The notes below the pieces were generated by a model. The model saw only the letters and a list, made by a program, of their open reading frames with translations. It was not told where the DNA came from and searched no databases. From positions 1 to 41,520 of the IMG/VR virus record IMGVR_UViG_3300044655_001122: 41,520 nucleotides of DNA; one strand, given 5' to 3'. This stretch comes from a virus. The position numbers were made by a program, and so were the translations under genes. Shown here one piece after another: positions 23,303 to 39,890 of the stretch. Within the stretch, counting starts at the first letter, position 1. Each line of letters begins with the position of its first letter.

Positions 23303-24160
23303 TTAGGACCAGTTCTCGTAAGTGTTAGGTGGATTGAATGGATTATTAAAAACACCTGGGTTATTTGGAATATTTAAGGTATCATTCCATGGATTTTCTG
23401 GAGGAGTTTCACCACCACCCTCACCACCTGGAGTTGCTGCAACAGATGTTGGTGGTAAAATACTTGTAAGAGCAAGTTGTGTTTCGTGTGTACCCGTATT
23501 GGTAAACATGTGTTTAATACCCAAAACCCAATATATTCCATTAATAGGAGATGATCCGGCTGAATACGGATAGCCACTAGTATTGTTTGCTACAACTTCA
23601 ACAAAATCACCAGATCTTAAACTCATATCTCCAGAAATATTAATAGTTACTTTTCTTCCAAAGGTTATAGAATCTAAAAACTCTTTACGTTTAACGGGAG
23701 CATCTTTAGGAGTATTCCAAAAAGTAGCAACATTTAAACGTAATTTTAAATACGCTTCAAATTTTTCACCAATCTCTGGACAACTGCAGTTAAATGGTGC
23801 TTCTGGAAGTCCCCACAAACAACCAAAGAAATCTTCACCAAGTTCTGTATTAGATTTAATCTTCATACATTCATTAGATGCCGTACCTAAATAAATATCA
23901 AATGGTGGTGTAAGACCAGCAGAACCACACATTCCAGGAAAAGACCATAAAGATGCTGATCCTGTTATACCTATTGCTTCTGCAATAGTAGCAATTTTGG
24001 GAAAACGTGTCAAACAATCATCTAATGATGTTGGAGATGATGTTATGCCTTGAGTGATTTGTGCATTTGCACAGACATATTCACCACGTGCACCAAAATT
24101 ACCAATAGGTGTTGATAACACATTTGAACCAAGAGTTACAATTTTTCCTTTTTGTGGCAT
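23303..24160 (-). CDS. Probable baseplate hub protein, C-terminal-type domain
   Basis: The 285-aa protein has a Cys-containing N-terminal half. A later region reads RKVTINISGDMSLRSGDFVE then VVANN, and INGIYWVLGIKHMFTNTGTH then ETQLALTS (about 210-238). That pattern, a strand followed by (N/S)G-x-Y-x-V-x(2)-(I/V)-x-H-x-F and T-x-L-x-L, is typical of the last domain of gp27/gpD-type hub proteins. The C-terminal tail (about 245-285) is Gly/Pro/Asn-rich. It follows the 651-aa gene with a 1-nt overlap, so the two could be halves of a split hub. The function is inferred. Confidence 0.6.
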   Translation of the reverse strand: MPQKGKIVTLGSNVLSTPIGNFGARGEYVCANAQITQGITSSPTSLDDCLTRFPKIATIAEAIGITGSASLWSFPGMCGSAGLTPPFDIYLGTASNECMKIKSNTELGEDFFGCLWGLPEAPFNCSCPEIGEKFEAYLKLRLNVATFWNTPKDAPVKRKEFLDSITFGRKVTINISGDMSLRSGDFVEVVANNTSGYPYSAGSSPINGIYWVLGIKHMFTNTGTHETQLALTSILPPTSVAATPGGEGGGETPPENPWNDTLNIPNNPGVFNNPFNPPNTYENWS

Positions 24161-26115
24161 TAGCAGTTCCCATCTAAAACGTTTTCGGCACTAAAGTAAT
24201 ACAATGCTTTACCTCTTAATTCTGGTGGTACTGTTATATTACCATCCATTGCCATTTTTTCTGCACTTGTACGATACATTTTTACAATATGTGCTATAGT
24301 TGCACCAGTTGGAGTGACAGTGCTCGTATTACATCCAATAGGTCTATATTTAAATCCACCAACTTCAGAAACCCAACCGGGTGGTAGATACTTTGGATCA
24401 CCTAAACCAGCAGTTCTCTCATTTAAATTTATCGCCCAAGTATCTTGGGTTGCACCAGCCATATTAGTTTCATCAGTTTCCCATAATTCCATTAATGACC
24501 AATATGTACTACCAGCAGCATTAATAAACTTTAAACCTTCCCATTTATATCTCCACTTTAATTCGGGACCCATTGATTGTGTTGTTGAAGTTGCTGCTGC
24601 ATAATCTGCAACCAATTTATCTGGTTCATATCTTATTAAATTTGCAAAGAAGGTTTCGTCATCACCAAGACAACACAATACATATAAAACAAAGTTTTCA
24701 CGTTCAATTTTTCTACGTGTTTCCAAATTATCAGGAGAATACGATGAACCTTTATATAATTCTGTAAGATTTTTTTGAATTTGATTATAATAGAAAGTAC
24801 TAGTATCTGGTTCAGCTTCAGGATCTGCTGTTAGTGATCTAGGATAATCAGGGTGAACTGCTGTCATATCAAACATATTTTTCCACATTTCAGTATTATC
24901 TGCACGTGAAAAATAACCACTGTGACCCATGTAATCATTAGTTGAATATGTCTTTGCTAACCCAAATTCACCCGACCCATGTGTAGCTGGAGCGTTATCA
25001 TTTGTAGTGTTGGTATCAGAAACCCATCCATAATCTTTTTCATAAAATACTTCATCTGCACCAGATGTTATTCCACCAATTAAACCATTAGATGCAATGG
25101 TTTCAATATTATATTTTTCACCATCATCTTGAAAATGGAATGTTAGAGCTTTGGTTGTATATTTTACTGAATCAGTTATTTCAGGTGGAATAATATCTAA
25201 AAACTTAGGAGTTTTTCTAACATAAACATAATTTTTAGAAACAAATTGATTTGTAGGATCAGTATTTAAAACATAAATCTTTTTATATGTTTCTCCATTT
25301 GTAGATAGCTGAGTAGGACTATCACCATTATAAACACTATATCTATAGTTATTGTTATTATATTTGGTAATACTAACAGGATCTTTACTCAAATCAGATG
25401 GAAAATGTTTAAAATTAATGTAATCACCAAATTCCGTCCAAAACATAAATCTGGGTTCAAATGATGTTTTATCTACAGCCAATGAAGAAAGGTAATTTAA
25501 ATATTGAAATGCATTATCTGTAACAGATAAATTTAATTTATTACTTCCAACATTTAATTGTTTTAATGAAAAGAAATTGTCTGCAGGAGTTAGTGTTCCA
25601 ATATGAGTATCTTGAGTTGAACTAAGTCTATTTTTAATATTATTACTTGCAGAAGTAAATAATTCTTCAATTGTATAAACTCTATCTTCAAGAGTGTCTA
25701 CACTAATAAGTAAATCTGCTGCTGATGTTTTTTGTGATAATTTATAAAAACTATTAGTAAAATTAATTGAAACAAAACTATCTTCATTATCAGAAGCCGC
25801 ATTGGTTACATTTGCAGTACTGGTTATTGATAATAAACGTGGTTTAGCACCATCATTAAATGAAACCAAAATGCTATCAATTTGATTTTTTTGAATAAAA
25901 TTTATTATATCTCCTGTATCACGTACAACAAGAGCACCTACTGGATAAATCTCAAATACACTTTCTTCCATTTCCAATCGTGTAAATTTACACTCAGCAT
26001 TCTCTCTTGTATTTTGGCTCAATATATCAAATGAATAGTTTGGAAACTTTGAACTTTTAAAAAGTAAAGATCTTATTGTAGAATCAAAGGCGTTTGAATT
26101 TGTATTTATTGCCAT
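24160..26115 (-). CDS. Large baseplate structural protein, possible gp27-like hub
   Basis: The 651-aa protein is not similar by eye to a single T4 protein. The first 300 residues are beta-rich, with FPNYSFDILSQNTRENAECK then FTRLEMEESVFEIYPVGALV, and KPRLLSITSTANVTNAAS. These resemble the first barrel domains of hub proteins that sit below the tube. The region 390-560 is aromatic-rich and helical and contains DDETFFANLIRYEPDKLVAD. It lies between the gp53 gene and the 285-aa hub-like gene and is translated with both. Assignment as the T4 gp27 counterpart is by position and domain pattern only. Confidence 0.55.
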   Translation of the reverse strand: MAINTNSNAFDSTIRSLLFKSSKFPNYSFDILSQNTRENAECKFTRLEMEESVFEIYPVGALVVRDTGDIINFIQKNQIDSILVSFNDGAKPRLLSITSTANVTNAASDNEDSFVSINFTNSFYKLSQKTSAADLLISVDTLEDRVYTIEELFTSASNNIKNRLSSTQDTHIGTLTPADNFFSLKQLNVGSNKLNLSVTDNAFQYLNYLSSLAVDKTSFEPRFMFWTEFGDYINFKHFPSDLSKDPVSITKYNNNNYRYSVYNGDSPTQLSTNGETYKKIYVLNTDPTNQFVSKNYVYVRKTPKFLDIIPPEITDSVKYTTKALTFHFQDDGEKYNIETIASNGLIGGITSGADEVFYEKDYGWVSDTNTTNDNAPATHGSGEFGLAKTYSTNDYMGHSGYFSRADNTEMWKNMFDMTAVHPDYPRSLTADPEAEPDTSTFYYNQIQKNLTELYKGSSYSPDNLETRRKIERENFVLYVLCCLGDDETFFANLIRYEPDKLVADYAAATSTTQSMGPELKWRYKWEGLKFINAAGSTYWSLMELWETDETNMAGATQDTWAINLNERTAGLGDPKYLPPGWVSEVGGFKYRPIGCNTSTVTPTGATIAHIVKMYRTSAEKMAMDGNITVPPELRGKALYYFSAENVLDGNC

Positions 26116-27804: not shown

Positions 27805-28239
27805 ATGGCATACAGAACACAATTTTTTCCGCAAAATAAACAAAAATACGTTGGTGATTCTCAAAAAATCATTTGTAGATCATTATGGGAACGAACTGTC
27901 TGTAAATTTTGTGATGATCACCCCAGCATTATAAAGTGGTCATCTGAAGAAATTGCCATTCCATACTTTCACCCAATCGACAATAGAGTCAGAAATTACT
28001 ATCCAGATTTTTTAATTCAGTTTCAACAAAAAGAAAAGTTATGTTTATGGATGGTCGAAGTTAAACCAAAAAAACAAACAATCTTAAAAGAAAATGCTTC
28101 TAAAAATGAAAAGTATACTTGGGTAGTTAATAATGCAAAATGGGAAGCAGCCAAAAATTATTGCACTAAGAATAATATTGAATTTAAACTTCTAACAGAA
28201 AAAGAGTTATATAACAAATGTCATCTTCACAAAATTTAA
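27805..28239 (+). CDS. gp4: Head completion nuclease gp4
   Basis: The 144-aa protein matches T4 gp4 (gp50/65; 150 aa). The N-terminus NKQKYVGDSQKIICRSLWER then VCKFCDDHPSIIKWSSEEIA (11-51) is highly conserved. PD-(D/E)xK nuclease residues are visible as NYYPDF (D68) and VEVKPKK (E85, K87). gp4 joins late head completion, probably trimming protruding DNA before tail attachment. It is first in the plus-strand block and its 3' end overlaps the next gene by 22 nt. Confidence 0.93.
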   Translation: MAYRTQFFPQNKQKYVGDSQKIICRSLWERTVCKFCDDHPSIIKWSSEEIAIPYFHPIDNRVRNYYPDFLIQFQQKEKLCLWMVEVKPKKQTILKENASKNEKYTWVVNNAKWEAAKNYCTKNNIEFKLLTEKELYNKCHLHKI

Positions 28240-28781
28240 ATAATATTGAAACCATAAAAACCTATTTGGATACCCATCAAGGTCTTCAAAGAGCTAACAG
28301 GTATTCTGTTGTAATAAAAAATATAGCATCAAATGATGATGCTTTGACATGCTATCCGGAAGCAGTATCTTTTGGTGCAAGAGCTACAAATTACATATAT
28401 GACAATTTACAAGGATATGGTTATGGTCGGGCTGTTCCCAACTCAAGTAAGTTTGTTGGTGGAATAGTAATGACATTTATGGTTACTGGAGATTTAAGTA
28501 TTTTAACATACTTTAATGACTGGTTTGATTCTATGTATGCAAAGAATGCTAATAGTACGTTTACAGTGCCTTACTATGATCAGTCTGTTTTAGGTTCTGA
28601 ACTATATTTGACATACTTAGATCTAAACGGCAATCCTTCTCCAGGACGTTCTGTGTGGACATTTAAAGAAATTTATCCTGTCGAGTGTATGCCATTAGAA
28701 ATGTCATCAAAACCCGACTCTCCACTTTTATATCAAGTTGTACTAAATTATCGAAACATTGAAAGATCTACAGGAGATTAA
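28218..28781 (+). CDS. Tail-tube-fold protein, possible gp54-type tube initiator
   Basis: The 187-aa protein has a tube-like pattern: RANRYSVVIKNIA (about 20-32), AVSFGARATNYIYDNLQGYG, VMTFMVTGDLSILTYFNDWF (about 76-95, the strand-helix unit with a W-F end), YLTYLDLNGNPSPGRSVWTF then KEIYPVECMP (compare tube IKGLWPTNVGEL) and VVLNYRNIE. It is encoded between gp4 and the gp26-like gene, next to the divergent gp48-like gene. In T4, gp48 and gp54 are neighbours and start the tube, so a gp54-like role is plausible. A third or fourth tube paralogue is the alternative. Confidence 0.7.
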   Translation: MSSSQNLNNIETIKTYLDTHQGLQRANRYSVVIKNIASNDDALTCYPEAVSFGARATNYIYDNLQGYGYGRAVPNSSKFVGGIVMTFMVTGDLSILTYFNDWFDSMYAKNANSTFTVPYYDQSVLGSELYLTYLDLNGNPSPGRSVWTFKEIYPVECMPLEMSSKPDSPLLYQVVLNYRNIERSTGD

Positions 28782-28782
28782 T

Positions 28783-29439
28783 ATGGATATTTTAAATTTA
28801 TTTAAAGATGCTCAACCAAAGTTTGAAACAACTTTACCGTTTAGTAAGAAACAAGTTTTATTTACTGCATTTAAAGTCAAAGACGCAAAAAAAATTGCGT
28901 TAGTCTTACAAGAAAATAATAAGAAATTATCTTTAATTGCTCTTTATGAGTGTATTAAAGAAAATTCTAATTTAAAAAATATTGATGATTTATGTTTGGC
29001 AGATGCTGAATATTTATTTTTACAAATTAGATCTAAAAGTGTTGATGAACTTTTAAATGTCCTAGTTAATGGTAGTAAATATCAGATTCAAATTAATAAC
29101 ATTATTACAAAAAATAATTTACAGATCAAAACAATTTTAATAGGATCTTCAATTGTTTTAAATTTAGAATCTCCAGTACTATCAGATCTGTTAAAACAAG
29201 ACAATTTTGATGACCAAACTTATGCTAAAGCATGTATCAAAAGTATAAACATATCTGGACAAGTATTTTACCTAGATAAATTTTTAAACAAAGAATGTCA
29301 AGATATTATTGACAACATGCCAATTTCAACAATTAAGGATCTTAACAAATTTGTAGAAACCGAACCCAGACTTTATTTTGCTATAAAGGATGAAATAAAT
29401 GAAAGTGAGGTAAACGGTTTCCTAAGTTTTTTTATCTAG
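28783..29439 (+). CDS. gp26-like baseplate/tail assembly protein (unshifted product)
   Basis: The 218-aa product resembles the T4 gp26-type baseplate family. LPFSKKQVLFTAFKVKDAKK (about 18-37) matches the F-x-V-K start. NIDDLCLADAEYLFLQIRSK then SVDELLNV (about 66-93) matches the D-x(2)-YL-x-LQ-x-R-x-KS block. I chose the ATG at 28783 over 28759 because AGGAG lies 6-7 nt upstream and overlaps the previous stop. T4 gp26 (208 aa) acts in baseplate hub assembly. The last codons read CTA AGT TTT TTT ATC TAG, and a T7 run there continues into a second frame (see the next entry), as in phage tail-assembly chaperones. Confidence 0.78.
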   Translation: MDILNLFKDAQPKFETTLPFSKKQVLFTAFKVKDAKKIALVLQENNKKLSLIALYECIKENSNLKNIDDLCLADAEYLFLQIRSKSVDELLNVLVNGSKYQIQINNIITKNNLQIKTILIGSSIVLNLESPVLSDLLKQDNFDDQTYAKACIKSINISGQVFYLDKFLNKECQDIIDNMPISTIKDLNKFVETEPRLYFAIKDEINESEVNGFLSFFI

Positions 29440-29636
29440 CATCTAGTTACTTTGATATAATTGATTATTATAAAACCAATTTTTCATTATTTAAAGAACT
29501 AAAATGGTCTATATCTGATATTGAAAATATGTATTTTTGGGAGAGAGAAGTTTATATAAGTGTTTTAGTTAGTTACAATCAAGATTTACAACAACAACAA
29601 CAGCATAACTCAGCAGCAGGACAATACATTGGATAA
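28783..29636 (+). CDS. Predicted -1 frameshift fusion, 284 aa
   Basis: A frame without any canonical start is open from 29409 to the TAA at 29634-29636. It overlaps the end of the gp26-like gene. A -1 slip on T TTT TTT (29427-29433) joins the two exactly: 28783-29433, then 29433-29636. This adds 67 residues, starting YLASSYFDIIDYYKTNFSLF and followed by KELKWSISDIENMYFWEREV. The W-S-x-x-(D/E)-I-x-x-M-x-x-W-E pattern is like the GpE/T extensions of P2- and lambda-type tail chaperones. The first ATG of the extension is only at 29529. The tail is Gln-rich. An SD-like GAGGT (29407-29411) lies about 15 nt upstream of the slip site. A homopolymer sequencing error is the alternative. Confidence 0.6.
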
Positions 29637-30129
29637 CACAAGTAAAATTGATATTCAGGCAGAAAAGTTAGCCTTTAATGATTCTATTGTACAATCAGGT
29701 ACATATAACGATATGGCAAAACCATCAGAACCTGTTACAAAAATGGAATTGCCACAAACTGAATTGATAGGAGAAAAGGCAAATATCCCATCGATTGTAA
29801 TGGCACCTGTTACCCCACCAAGTAACTATGAGACTGATGATAGAATTAGTATTAATCCAGTTGTACCGGCTTCTCGTGAATCTAAATTATTAAATATGCA
29901 AACCAGTTCACCAGATAATGTAACTAGTAAAAAAACAACAAATATAGAAAAACAGATATCACAGAGCATACTACCTTCAATTCAAAAAATTGCACAACAG
30001 GTAAATGATATGGGTACGTCTCAAGGAAAAAAAACCAGTATGACTGAAGAACGACCTACACTTGCCCCCGTAAATTTAATTTTTATGGAAAGAAGTGCTA
30101 AGGCATCTCAATCACCTGCATGGTCATAA
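29629..30129 (+). CDS. Hypothetical low-complexity protein (166 aa)
   Basis: The frame opens after 29566 but contains no ATG early, so the best start is the TTG at 29629, which has AGGA 7 nt upstream and overlaps the preceding stop by 8 nt. The product is rich in Ser, Thr, Pro, Gln and Lys, with no hydrophobic core. It has a helical stretch EKQISQSILPSIQKIAQQVN near residues 105-125. I do not recognise it. Coming directly after a chaperone-like frameshift pair, it occupies the place where many phages have a tape measure, but it is far too short. It ends in a terminator. Confidence 0.65.
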   Translation: MDNTSKIDIQAEKLAFNDSIVQSGTYNDMAKPSEPVTKMELPQTELIGEKANIPSIVMAPVTPPSNYETDDRISINPVVPASRESKLLNMQTSSPDNVTSKKTTNIEKQISQSILPSIQKIAQQVNDMGTSQGKKTSMTEERPTLAPVNLIFMERSAKASQSPAWS

Positions 30130-34355: not shown

Positions 34356-37300
34356 TTATGGCTCTGTTACAATAGCCTGACAAGTAATATCTCCAGATTG
34401 TACTACGGGAGTTTGTTGATTAGGATTAGGACCAGTTTGTGGAGAAACTATAACTTGATATGAACTAAGAGGTGGAGGATTTGGATTAATAAATCCTGAA
34501 AAACTTACTCTATCAAACGTTACACCATTAAACGAATTTGGTCTAAAGGCATTTATTAAATGCCATTTTTTAAGATCTCCACCCAATGGAGGAGCATAGT
34601 TATAAGTATTTCCAACATCAAAAACTAATAATTTTATATTTAATTGATCGTCTGTACACCCTGAGCTGTAACACGGTAATGTTGCACCTAACCAAGGATT
34701 ATCTGTGACACCAACATAACTGCTAGCAAGTTTATAAGGCGAACCTACTGGTACATTACGTTGATATGATACTATCCCATCATCTGCAGTACCATCTGTT
34801 TGCCAACCTAATGGTGTATCTTGACCATCTGGTGATACATACCAAATCCAACCACCAGGACCTAATATTGATGCTCCTGGATCTGCCAAAATACATCCAA
34901 CTGTTCCATTACCATCACATGGTTTACCTGTTTGACTTTGGTTTCTTAATGCAAAGAAATAGGAATCTTGTAACTTATCTAATCTAGCTTCACCCAAATA
35001 AACATAAGGGTACTGTAAAACACTATCATATGGAAATATTTTTAAAGCATTTGATGGTTTATTATATTCGTGTCGATATGGATCTTTGGTAAAAAATGTT
35101 TTATAAGTTGATGAAGCTTCATCATATCCAAAGTATGTTAATTTTTGTACATAATTAAAATATGAAATATTTGTAATATGTGTTTTACAACATCCATTTT
35201 TTCTTGAAAATTGTTTATACGATTGTATAAAATAATCTTTATTAGAATTAAATCCTACTTTTCCTACTGATGTAGCACATATGTCAGAGAAAGAAGGTCC
35301 ATCTGGACAACAATTTCTTATACAAGTACCACCCTCACAATTTGATTCACATACTAAAGCACATCCACTATCTTGTGGAGCCCAACCTCTTGCAGCTTCT
35401 AATAGCGGCATTCCAGTAGACTGCCAACAAATATCTGCTTTTTCTGGACATCCAGCACTAATGCTACTATTACCATCACTCAATCCACTTGCTTGATTAC
35501 CAAAGTCCAAATATTGTGTACATTGTGTAATATCATCTACTTCAACACTATGATTTGGTACATACGATTGGTATCTTCGAATAAAAGAATTCATCCACCA
35601 ATATTGAGGATTTCCACTATATTGCCAAGATATATCTTCTGTTCCTTCAAAATTATATCCTAAAATACTGCAAGGATCGGGTTGAGCAACTGGATCTCCA
35701 GAATTAGTTATTCTTTGGTCACAAAATCCACCATAAATCCATTTTGAAAAATCCCAATTTCCAGGAACTGCTCTAAAAAAAGCTTGGCGTTGAAAGTATT
35801 TTGGAATATTACTGGTACCCGCACCGAATTGGGCTGTTACAGCTTCAGGATCAACAAAATCTCGATAATTCCAAGTAGGAGATACAACATCACCGTATTT
35901 TAAAGCAATAGCATGCCCATATCCAAATGATATATCACTGTAACCAAATTCACTTATATCATCAGGATCTGGAGTAGACAAACCATAATAGTTTTCATTT
36001 TTTCTTGTCCATATAAACGTTTTATTTACACGAAAGAATTCTGTTCCAAATAGTTGAGAATCATTTCTAGTTTTATATAAAACAGCAAATCCATTTGATC
36101 CTGCTGTAATTTTTATTATATCTCCATCAAAAGTTTGAGACCAAGATCCAGTTGCACCGGGTAAATCTGTTGTTTTGTATGTAGGAAGCATTTCAGTTCT
36201 TCCCCATACATATACAGTAGAATTAGAAGCAACCATACTATAGTCTGGTCCACCATCAACAAATATTAATTTATCTGTAGGACTATGTTGAGAAAGTAAA
36301 TCAAAAGATTCTGCAAGTAAAGATTCATCCTGAGAACTACTAGGGATATCTGTTTTATAGGTTACAGTCCACTGATCTGCTAAATTTTTTACAGAATCTG
36401 GAAGAAAGGTTGGTATTGTAGTTCCAATTTTTTCACCTAAAGGATTAATATAATAATATGCACCCCAAACTCTTACTTGATTATCAGATTGTATTGCAAT
36501 TGCATGATAATTACCAGATCCAATTTGGGTATAATATGGTCTACTATAACCTGCAGTAAGACCATTAATAGTATTACCAGAATCGTCAATAGGAACACGT
36601 TGTATTAATCCTGTACGCGCATCCTTTAAATCATCAGGTGTAGATGAACTATATCTACAAGTTTCATTTATATTTCCATATGTTATGCCATTGTATCTAC
36701 CATAAAATAGTCCGCTACTATTTATTTGTAATGTAACATTATATTCGCCTTCAGATACGTAGCCTGGTTTAGCGTCATATCTATTAATAATATTATTTGT
36801 TCCAGGAAGATTTTCATTATTTTGACCATACTGAAATATATTATCAGTATTATCACCGGTTACTGCTAATTCACCCATAGAAGATATTGCAACGGTATGT
36901 TTACTTCCATTAGCAACATCAGACCAAACCATTTCTCTATTGTCAGCATAATCACCATATCCACCTGGATTTGAAAAACTAGAACGAACAAACGTTCCGT
37001 AATCGCATGCTTTATTACCCCAAGAACGTAATCTATATTGAGGGAGTTTTGCATCATAATTATAAACTGGATAATTTTCTCCAGGTATTCTTGGAATAAC
37101 ACCATCAGCTAGATCACAGAAAGAATCTTGACTAGGTGATGATGTACAAGATGTTGATGTTTGATTAAAATCAAAAAACTCAGGATATTCAACTAATGCA
37201 ACTTCAAAGGTACTACTTTTACCACCAAGTTTTACTAAAATACCTAAAGTAGGATCTGCACCAGCAGCTTGATTATCTTGATCTGCAACCAAATCTCTTG

Positions 37301-39890
37301 GTAAACAATTTGCAAGATTTTGCTCACCATATCCAGATGCAACTAATTTTCCTTGATATGTGTGCCAAAAATTAGTATTTAATCCTGCAGTAACTTTACT
37401 AATTCCTTTTGGAAACCATGGATTAGTTAAACTGACTACAGTGAGTATAGATGGAACTGTAATTTGATCATAAACATTATTTCTACATGAATCACCAGTA
37501 CACCCCCATGCTACTGCTATACCGGATTCAATATAAGATGGTAAAACTGCACGTCTAGGAAAAGGAAATGTTTGTAAATCTTGGAACTTACTTACCGTTG
37601 TGTCTGACAATAATTTTTGTTTAATTATTTTTGGAGTTACACTTCCAGTTACTGGTTCAACATCTAAAAATTCAACTAAATTTTTATAACCGGCTGTACC
37701 ACCAACAATTGAAGAAATATATGGATTTAATACAATATCATTATTTACATCATATTCTGCAGATTGAATAATTTGTGTTGTTTCTGTTGCAATATCTATT
37801 GCATGATCCTTTACACGTAAAATTCCTGCTCGTACCATTTCTTCTAATGCAGCACTAACATATGCATAATCTGATATTAAAGTAGTTCCATCAATATCAA
37901 TAGGTGTTGGTGTTGGGGCTCTATTACCTTTTTCTATTAAACTATAAAAATAGTTATAATAACCCTTTAAAAATCTTTCAGGATTAAATAATTCACCTGC
38001 TATTAAAAGATTGTTATTTAAAGAATAAAGTTTAAATGTATAAAGATCAAAATGAAATATTGGAATCTGTGAACCAACATACATTACTCTTCGGGGACTA
38101 GTTCTTATTAACGAGTAACGTATAGCTTCTTGTCCATGAAAATTCATATCATTTCCACTTATATTACCACTATATGGTATTTCAAATGGTGATGATAATA
38201 CATTACCATGATTTAAATTAGCTGCTAGATTAGGATGCTTAACACCATCACCAGATCTATGTGCCCATGCTTCAAAATGATGTTCTAATGTTACATATCC
38301 TATTAGCTGATCTTTTAATCTGGTTTTATTTACTGTAACTTCTTTGTAGCGTATATCGTATTCAATTGGCATATCATTAGATGATATTTTTTGAAAACGT
38401 GTAGGGTCATACGATGGTCCAAAATCTCTATTTGGATCATCAGATCTACCAAAAGTCCAAATATCAAATCCGGATTTTAGTTTACCATTATTTTTATCTT
38501 CTTGTAAAGCAAGTCTCATTAAATATGGAGAAATTCCATATGCAAAACATAATTTTCTATATCTTGGATTATAAATCTCGGCAGGAATATTTGCTGGTAT
38601 AGATGGATTACTTGAAGGGGAAAATGAACAATGTTCTCCAGCCATACCACCTTGTGTCCAAAGTCTAAATTTTCCAGAATGAAAAGGATATGTTATATTA
38701 TTTCTTGCAATTGCTGAATTCCGAGCAAAGACACCTGCAACTGTATCCATACCAGGACTACCACACCAACAACATCCTATTTCGGATTTTTTCATTGGTG
38801 ATTGAAATGGATTCATAAATGGCAGATAGCCATATTGATATTCTTTTTTAGAAATATTTTCTTTTTTAAATACTGTATCTTGAATACCACCCTTAATGTG
38901 TGCAAAACGCCTACATTCACACGGTGTTGAGGGCCAGGTACCAGATAATGGTGGTGATCCACCAATACACGGAGAATCCAGTGCATTTGGATTAAGTATT
39001 CCTGCATTATTAGTGGTTACATTAAAAGCAGGAGAACATGATCTATCTACAGATCCAAATAAACTACTATGATGATATGCTTGACACTGAGGTATCATAG
39101 GTTCGCCACCAAAAGCATATTCTGGAGGATACCAAATAAAATAGCATGCAGTGTGTCGATACATTATATCAAAATCATCACCACCAGGTGCACCATTACC
39201 AAATAAACATTGTTTACATGCGTCAGGTGGAGCATTTTGATTACATCCACCACCACCACCAGGACCATCGGGACCACCGGGACCACCACCCGGATCAGTA
39301 TCAACCCCACCACCTGGAGTAATGACTCCTGGATCACCCGTACTTAGTTGACCACAACAAGAATTACAAAATGATGAACATGCGGCTGCAATTGCCGGAT
39401 CACGTCCACACAATCCAGTTCCACTTATAGGTGGACCATATAGTCCAGAACATTTTGGACAAACAAGACGAATTAAAGCAGCTCTATCTATACCACCAAA
39501 GGGAGCTGGTCCAGTATTATCTCCCGGTCCAATACTATAACCTGCATCTTGGATTGCGGCATAACATCCTTCACCAAATATTTCATTTGGAGAACGTTGA
39601 GAACTCCCAAGTCCACCCCCACCTCCACCAAGACCTGTTGCAATATTTGTACCACCACCATAATCAGGATTACATATGTTTGGACATACGTTTGCACAAG
39701 TTTCACATTTTGATTTTGCATCATCTATACAATTATTTGAAAATGATTCTTGGCAAGGATTATTATCATTTTGAAATAAACAATCACAACATTCTTGTGG
39801 ATAATATTTATTACACGGAGAATATGGTTGATCAATAGTTTCACTTTTTAAAAATGAAAGATATTTACTAACTGTTTTTCTATTTAACAT
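34356..39890 (-). CDS. Giant Cys/Gly-rich protein with RCC1-like repeats (1844 aa)
   Basis: The N-terminal 250 residues contain 22 Cys in clusters (ECCDC, CETCANVCPNIC, CNSCCG, CKQC) and Gly/Pro runs near 77-95 and 190-215. Residues about 250-780 are mixed and include ISPYLMRLALQEDKNNGKLK. Residues about 790-1340 hold at least five RCC1/BLIP-II-like blades with the pattern (I/V)-x-x-G-x-x-(H/Y)-x-x-(A/V)-(I/V)-x-x-x-G-x-(V/L)-x-x-(W/T)G: examples are VANGSKHTVAISSMGELAVT, IGSGNYHAIAIQSDNQVRVW and FGYGHAIALKYGD. A second Cys-rich part spans about 1410-1640. This suggests a propeller presented on the virion, perhaps binding host or glycan. No tape-measure-like coiled coil is seen. Confidence 0.85.
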   Translation of the reverse strand: MLNRKTVSKYLSFLKSETIDQPYSPCNKYYPQECCDCLFQNDNNPCQESFSNNCIDDAKSKCETCANVCPNICNPDYGGGTNIATGLGGGGGGLGSSQRSPNEIFGEGCYAAIQDAGYSIGPGDNTGPAPFGGIDRAALIRLVCPKCSGLYGPPISGTGLCGRDPAIAAACSSFCNSCCGQLSTGDPGVITPGGGVDTDPGGGPGGPDGPGGGGGCNQNAPPDACKQCLFGNGAPGGDDFDIMYRHTACYFIWYPPEYAFGGEPMIPQCQAYHHSSLFGSVDRSCSPAFNVTTNNAGILNPNALDSPCIGGSPPLSGTWPSTPCECRRFAHIKGGIQDTVFKKENISKKEYQYGYLPFMNPFQSPMKKSEIGCCWCGSPGMDTVAGVFARNSAIARNNITYPFHSGKFRLWTQGGMAGEHCSFSPSSNPSIPANIPAEIYNPRYRKLCFAYGISPYLMRLALQEDKNNGKLKSGFDIWTFGRSDDPNRDFGPSYDPTRFQKISSNDMPIEYDIRYKEVTVNKTRLKDQLIGYVTLEHHFEAWAHRSGDGVKHPNLAANLNHGNVLSSPFEIPYSGNISGNDMNFHGQEAIRYSLIRTSPRRVMYVGSQIPIFHFDLYTFKLYSLNNNLLIAGELFNPERFLKGYYNYFYSLIEKGNRAPTPTPIDIDGTTLISDYAYVSAALEEMVRAGILRVKDHAIDIATETTQIIQSAEYDVNNDIVLNPYISSIVGGTAGYKNLVEFLDVEPVTGSVTPKIIKQKLLSDTTVSKFQDLQTFPFPRRAVLPSYIESGIAVAWGCTGDSCRNNVYDQITVPSILTVVSLTNPWFPKGISKVTAGLNTNFWHTYQGKLVASGYGEQNLANCLPRDLVADQDNQAAGADPTLGILVKLGGKSSTFEVALVEYPEFFDFNQTSTSCTSSPSQDSFCDLADGVIPRIPGENYPVYNYDAKLPQYRLRSWGNKACDYGTFVRSSFSNPGGYGDYADNREMVWSDVANGSKHTVAISSMGELAVTGDNTDNIFQYGQNNENLPGTNNIINRYDAKPGYVSEGEYNVTLQINSSGLFYGRYNGITYGNINETCRYSSSTPDDLKDARTGLIQRVPIDDSGNTINGLTAGYSRPYYTQIGSGNYHAIAIQSDNQVRVWGAYYYINPLGEKIGTTIPTFLPDSVKNLADQWTVTYKTDIPSSSQDESLLAESFDLLSQHSPTDKLIFVDGGPDYSMVASNSTVYVWGRTEMLPTYKTTDLPGATGSWSQTFDGDIIKITAGSNGFAVLYKTRNDSQLFGTEFFRVNKTFIWTRKNENYYGLSTPDPDDISEFGYSDISFGYGHAIALKYGDVVSPTWNYRDFVDPEAVTAQFGAGTSNIPKYFQRQAFFRAVPGNWDFSKWIYGGFCDQRITNSGDPVAQPDPCSILGYNFEGTEDISWQYSGNPQYWWMNSFIRRYQSYVPNHSVEVDDITQCTQYLDFGNQASGLSDGNSSISAGCPEKADICWQSTGMPLLEAARGWAPQDSGCALVCESNCEGGTCIRNCCPDGPSFSDICATSVGKVGFNSNKDYFIQSYKQFSRKNGCCKTHITNISYFNYVQKLTYFGYDEASSTYKTFFTKDPYRHEYNKPSNALKIFPYDSVLQYPYVYLGEARLDKLQDSYFFALRNQSQTGKPCDGNGTVGCILADPGASILGPGGWIWYVSPDGQDTPLGWQTDGTADDGIVSYQRNVPVGSPYKLASSYVGVTDNPWLGATLPCYSSGCTDDQLNIKLLVFDVGNTYNYAPPLGGDLKKWHLINAFRPNSFNGVTFDRVSFSGFINPNPPPLSSYQVIVSPQTGPNPNQQTPVVQSGDITCQAIVTEP

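Follow-up and report, generated by a model that had tools for sequence, protein, structure and literature searches.

A probable frameshifted tail assembly chaperone gene of the T4-like type

The window, by which we mean the whole stretch of 41,520 nucleotides analysed here (IMG/VR record IMGVR_UViG_3300044655_001122), very probably carries a tail assembly chaperone (TAC) gene of the T4-like (gp26/gp51) type which, judging from its sequence and that of its relatives, would give two products by a −1 frameshift. The gp26-like ORF (28783–29439, + strand) runs from ATG 28783 to the stop TAG 29437–29439, encodes a short product of 218 aa (TAC-N type) and ends, as read from the sequence, with ...CTA AGT TTT TTT ATC TAG. 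Across this stop the −1 reading frame is open (29409–29636, +, ending with TAA 29634–29636), and its first ATG, GTG or TTG is ATG 29529, 40 codons in. The slippery heptamer T TTT TTT (29427–29433, +), located one codon upstream of the 0-frame stop, is in register with the form X XXY YYZ and joins both frames before the stop. A −1 slip at this point gives exactly a product of 284 aa; the 67 aa read after the slip (29433–29636, +), which were aligned with 33 relatives, correspond to the gp51 C-terminal domain (TAC-C type, phrog_634). A probable 5′ stimulator, the SD-like GAGGT, is found in the sequence 15 nt upstream of the heptamer (29407–29411, +). The gp26-like ORF is preceded by a tail-tube-like ORF (28218–28781, phrog_45 match), and a downstream ORF of 166 aa (29629–30129, +) shares 8 nt with the end of the extension. 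On recheck of the sequence, all coordinates given by the initial annotation for the ORF end, the −1 frame, the heptamer, GAGGT and the 284-aa product were correct.

The two frames encode halves of one known protein

The short product matched PF12322 (T4_baseplate) at positions 2–218 of 219 (E 1.2e-21) and the gp26 family phrog_150 (E 4e-24), and the extension alone matched phrog_634, the 'baseplate hub assembly catalyst' gp51 (E 1.1e-15). With the 284-aa fusion, the phrog_150 match spanned residues 8–262 and crossed the frame junction; the two frames therefore join halves of one known protein. The initial annotation had likened the extension to GpE-type parts of tail assembly chaperones. Sequence comparison with P2 gpE′ showed no similarity, and what stands in place of this likeness is a recognisable gp51 C-terminal region. 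Other Pfam matches of the extension (KNOX2, LemA, DUF6760 and others) were weak and scattered, and were rejected.

The AlphaFold2 model of the short product reached a pLDDT of 91, and the extension was predicted to be mainly helical (pLDDT 69). A Foldseek search of the short-product model against the PDB returned no significant match; TAC chains came on top only in a second comparison (VIA), where the first two chains were the HK97 TAC 2ob9 (Z 7.1, rmsd 4.4, 87 aligned) and 3fgx (Z 7.5), the next scoring 2.9. As all these values are below Z 8, the modelled resemblance of the gp26 N-terminal domain to the HK97 tail assembly chaperone is taken as support rather than proof.

Frame and heptamer are conserved among relatives

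By tblastn, 462 phage records were matched, nearly all of them cyanophages and none above 60% identity; records in which both parts matched showed two separate match pieces. Two IMG/VR searches contributed about 160 further loci. Locus searches were queried with the gp26 protein, and one pattern of the second search held the FF residues, but neither their codons nor the frame of the extension. The initial annotation spoke of related marine phages; a marine origin is not established for the window and its nearest IMG/VR contigs.

Eleven annotated relatives, Caulobacter phage Cr30 among them, all had the second part in the −1 frame (11/11), and their first part ended with ...FFx*, encoded by T TTT TTC, but by T TTT TTT in Cr30. 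More generally, wherever an extension could be detected in a homologous locus it was in the −1 frame (172/172), far beyond what chance would give, and each of the 160 distinct loci carried the heptamer, either as T TTT TTC (138) or as T TTT TTT (22), one codon upstream of the gp26 stop in 141 cases. This pattern reaches proteins down to about 22% identity with the window. Codon choice at the site is peculiar: TTT TTC was used in 138/160 loci, versus 3 among the 152 Phe-Phe pairs found elsewhere in the same genes, the remainder being TTC TTT (95), TTT TTT (49) and TTC TTC (5); formal P values would overstate this bias since the sequences share ancestry. The codon preceding Phe-Phe at the site can specify Ser, Asn, Ala, Asp, Arg, Thr or Gly, and its third base was T in every case. 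Conservation of frame and heptamer thus exceeds protein constraint and provides strong comparative evidence for a programmed −1 frameshift. Both the overlap and the slippery run that the initial annotation suggested comparing are kept across the aligned loci, which argues well for its proposal of a programmed slip on the T run and of short and long products of the TAC type.

Other routes to the extension

The gp51-like protein could instead come from a gene of its own with a separate start, which would make the overlap incidental. We consider this improbable. Many cyanophage annotations do list gp51 separately, because most of these phages have an ATG near the gp26 stop (in 116/146 cyanophage-like loci it follows the stop by no more than about 15 nt), and separate initiation may occur there. 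However, under such a model neither the fixed −1 frame nor the T TTT TTY invariant across 160 loci needs to be conserved, and the candidate M occupies no fixed position in the alignment. In most members of the window lineage, the window included, the first start moreover lies within the conserved domain, 75–90 nt beyond the gp26 stop, and initiation there would cost the extension roughly a third of its length or more. Exceptions are L024 and L027, with ATG at the gp26 stop, L023, with TTG immediately ahead of it, and L025, L026 and L029, with a start at +42. Since no start codon serves the domain in most of the lineage, the frameshift looks to be the sole route to the full gp51 domain there.

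Still less probable is transcriptional slippage on the T run yielding the second frame. The 7 Ts of the window would suit it, but the runs at which bacterial polymerase is described to slip hold 9 As or Ts (PMC5009743). It is unlikely because most relatives (138/160) have just six Ts followed by C; this C, the most frequent third base of the A-site codon, is what tandem tRNA-Phe slippage on TTT TTC would permit. Homopolymers are error-prone in sequencing and assembly, yet an error splitting one continuous gene has a negligible probability, as the same two-frame geometry is present in independent contigs and in the sequenced isolates P-SSM4, S-SSM7, Cr30 and others, and the isolates refute this reading; for the window itself, the identical T run in three near relatives (L002–L004) and in the 71%-identical L005 excludes sequencing error.

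Candidate stimulatory elements

Among 14 distinct members of the window lineage, AAGGAGGT was present in 7 and GAGGT or GAGGTG in 6, located 14–15 nt upstream of the heptamer. The Glu codon within this SD-like site was GAG in 13/13 members versus 29/217 at the remaining Glu codons of these genes. The commonest form in other lineages is GGAGG or GAGG, 10 nt upstream. A lineage of uncultured phages with gp26 39–47% identical to the window (L019–L030), which has no member among the phage records listed, kept TTTTTTTA without exception in the aligned members. A stimulatory role of the SD-like site is likely from these patterns, and conservation of the site and the fixed GAG codon in the window lineage speak for the GAGGT noted in the initial annotation as a probable stimulator.

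Downstream, RNA starting directly after the heptamer folded more stably than shuffled sequences, with mean z values of −1.6 and −1.8, against 0.5 to −1.0 when it started at other offsets. RNAalifold on 13 members of the window lineage detected neither a conserved downstream stem-loop nor a common fold. A palindromic-looking VHMD hairpin in cyanophages was rejected: its pairing was no better than column composition predicts, and protein constraint may account for the weak association of one position pair (p 0.0016).

Proposed mechanism

Most ribosomes would terminate at TAG 29437 and release the 218-aa short form. We infer that a minority, while tRNA-Phe occupies both the P site and the A site over T TTT TTT, would slip back one base, probably assisted by GAGGT base-pairing to the 16S rRNA anti-SD, and would yield the 284-aa form that bears the C-terminal domain of gp51. 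If lambda gpG/gpGT is taken as the model, the two forms would act as a tape-measure chaperone pair, the shared part binding the tape measure protein and the extension recruiting tail-tube subunits. PMC3004832 counts T4 gp26 and gp51 among the hub assembly chaperones, gp51 being required for assembly and absent from the particle.

Relation to known chaperone systems

Frameshifting is reportedly conserved in several T4-like groups, T4 itself being said to use the separate genes 26 and 51. T4-like tail assembly chaperone genes were identified by Vladimirov, Gautam & Davidson (Virology 2022, 566:9-15), and PMC12846349 refers to that work for −1 frameshift signals of the poly-T type in the TAC-N genes of T4-like phages. 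The claim of the initial annotation that T4-type gp26 had no such description was consequently wrong: poly-T frameshift chaperones are already described for T4-like phages, and the window adds a divergent further case. Novelty may reside in a lineage-specific cassette and in the common absence of an alternative start. The T4-like TACs share with the window the families phrog_150, PF12322 and phrog_634, a poly-T signal and, as proposed for the window, short and long products; the window has T TTT TTT where T TTT TTC is usual, and a stronger SD-like site marks its lineage.

Similar organisations exist further away. Phage P2 E/E+E′ is, as proposed for the window gene, one gene with a −1 frameshift near its end and a long product, but the extensions share no sequence similarity; in P2 the overlapping gene directly downstream is the tape measure gene, and the overlapping next ORF in the window has just 166 aa. 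In lambda, low-level −1 frameshifting gives two chaperone forms, gpG and gpGT (PMC5009743), as proposed for the window, although protein sequences and slip site are different. In the TAC locus of Vandenendeviridae and Andersonviridae (PMC12846349), as in the window, a poly-T −1 site is conserved towards the 3′ end of TAC-N and the −1 frame is open throughout; these are other phage families, with the motif GTTTTT.

T4 has gene 26 (208 aa) as a minus-strand gene and gene 51 (249 aa) as a plus-strand gene. All of T4 gp51 matched phrog_150, its residues 1–201 matched PF12322 (E 4e-52) and its C-terminus phrog_634, and direct alignment of gp26 with gp51 gave 20% identity (E 2e-6). On these comparisons gp51 is a gp26 paralogue with the extension fused in one frame, and T4 therefore holds one short copy and one that is long and fused. 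In their summary of Vladimirov et al., PRFect's authors give the same arrangement. Thus T4 devotes two genes on opposite strands to what the window encodes in one frameshifted gene.

The downstream ORF and neighbouring genes

Homologues of the 166-aa ORF were found only in the window lineage, with a variable size (140–202 aa) and a conserved C-terminus, NLIF..R....S..P.W[AS]; family searches with this ORF gave no match. At its position, cyanophages carry a large ORF annotated 'endolysin' or hypothetical, which possibly looks more like a tape measure protein. We offer only tentatively, as a somewhat doubtful reading, that the window lineage has a distinct and stronger recoding cassette (near-perfect AAGGAGGT at 14–15 nt with T TTT TTT A, mostly without an alternative start), its chaperone being paired with an unusually small, variable protein that replaces the large tape-measure-like gene. 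Elsewhere in the window, a 651-aa protein located among baseplate genes (24160–26115, −) and an ORF of 1844 aa (34356–39890, −) had no PHROG match.

Implications for annotation and for T4-like phages

Annotation of gp51 is inconsistent among the annotated cyanophages examined (L007–L017): it appears as a separate gene with varied starts or is missing, as in S-WAM2, S-MbCM25 and S-SSM4, and the −1 frame is intact throughout. Hundreds of cyanophage records list gp51 as separate or lack it, and a joined CDS is probably due in them. Our comparison bears out the spread of frameshift-made chaperone pairs across T4-like phages, the separate genes 26 and 51 of T4 representing the same pair, arisen by duplication. 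If the window lineage does possess a distinct cassette and so small a chaperone partner, its short:long ratio or its length-control partner would be unlike those of other T4-like phages.
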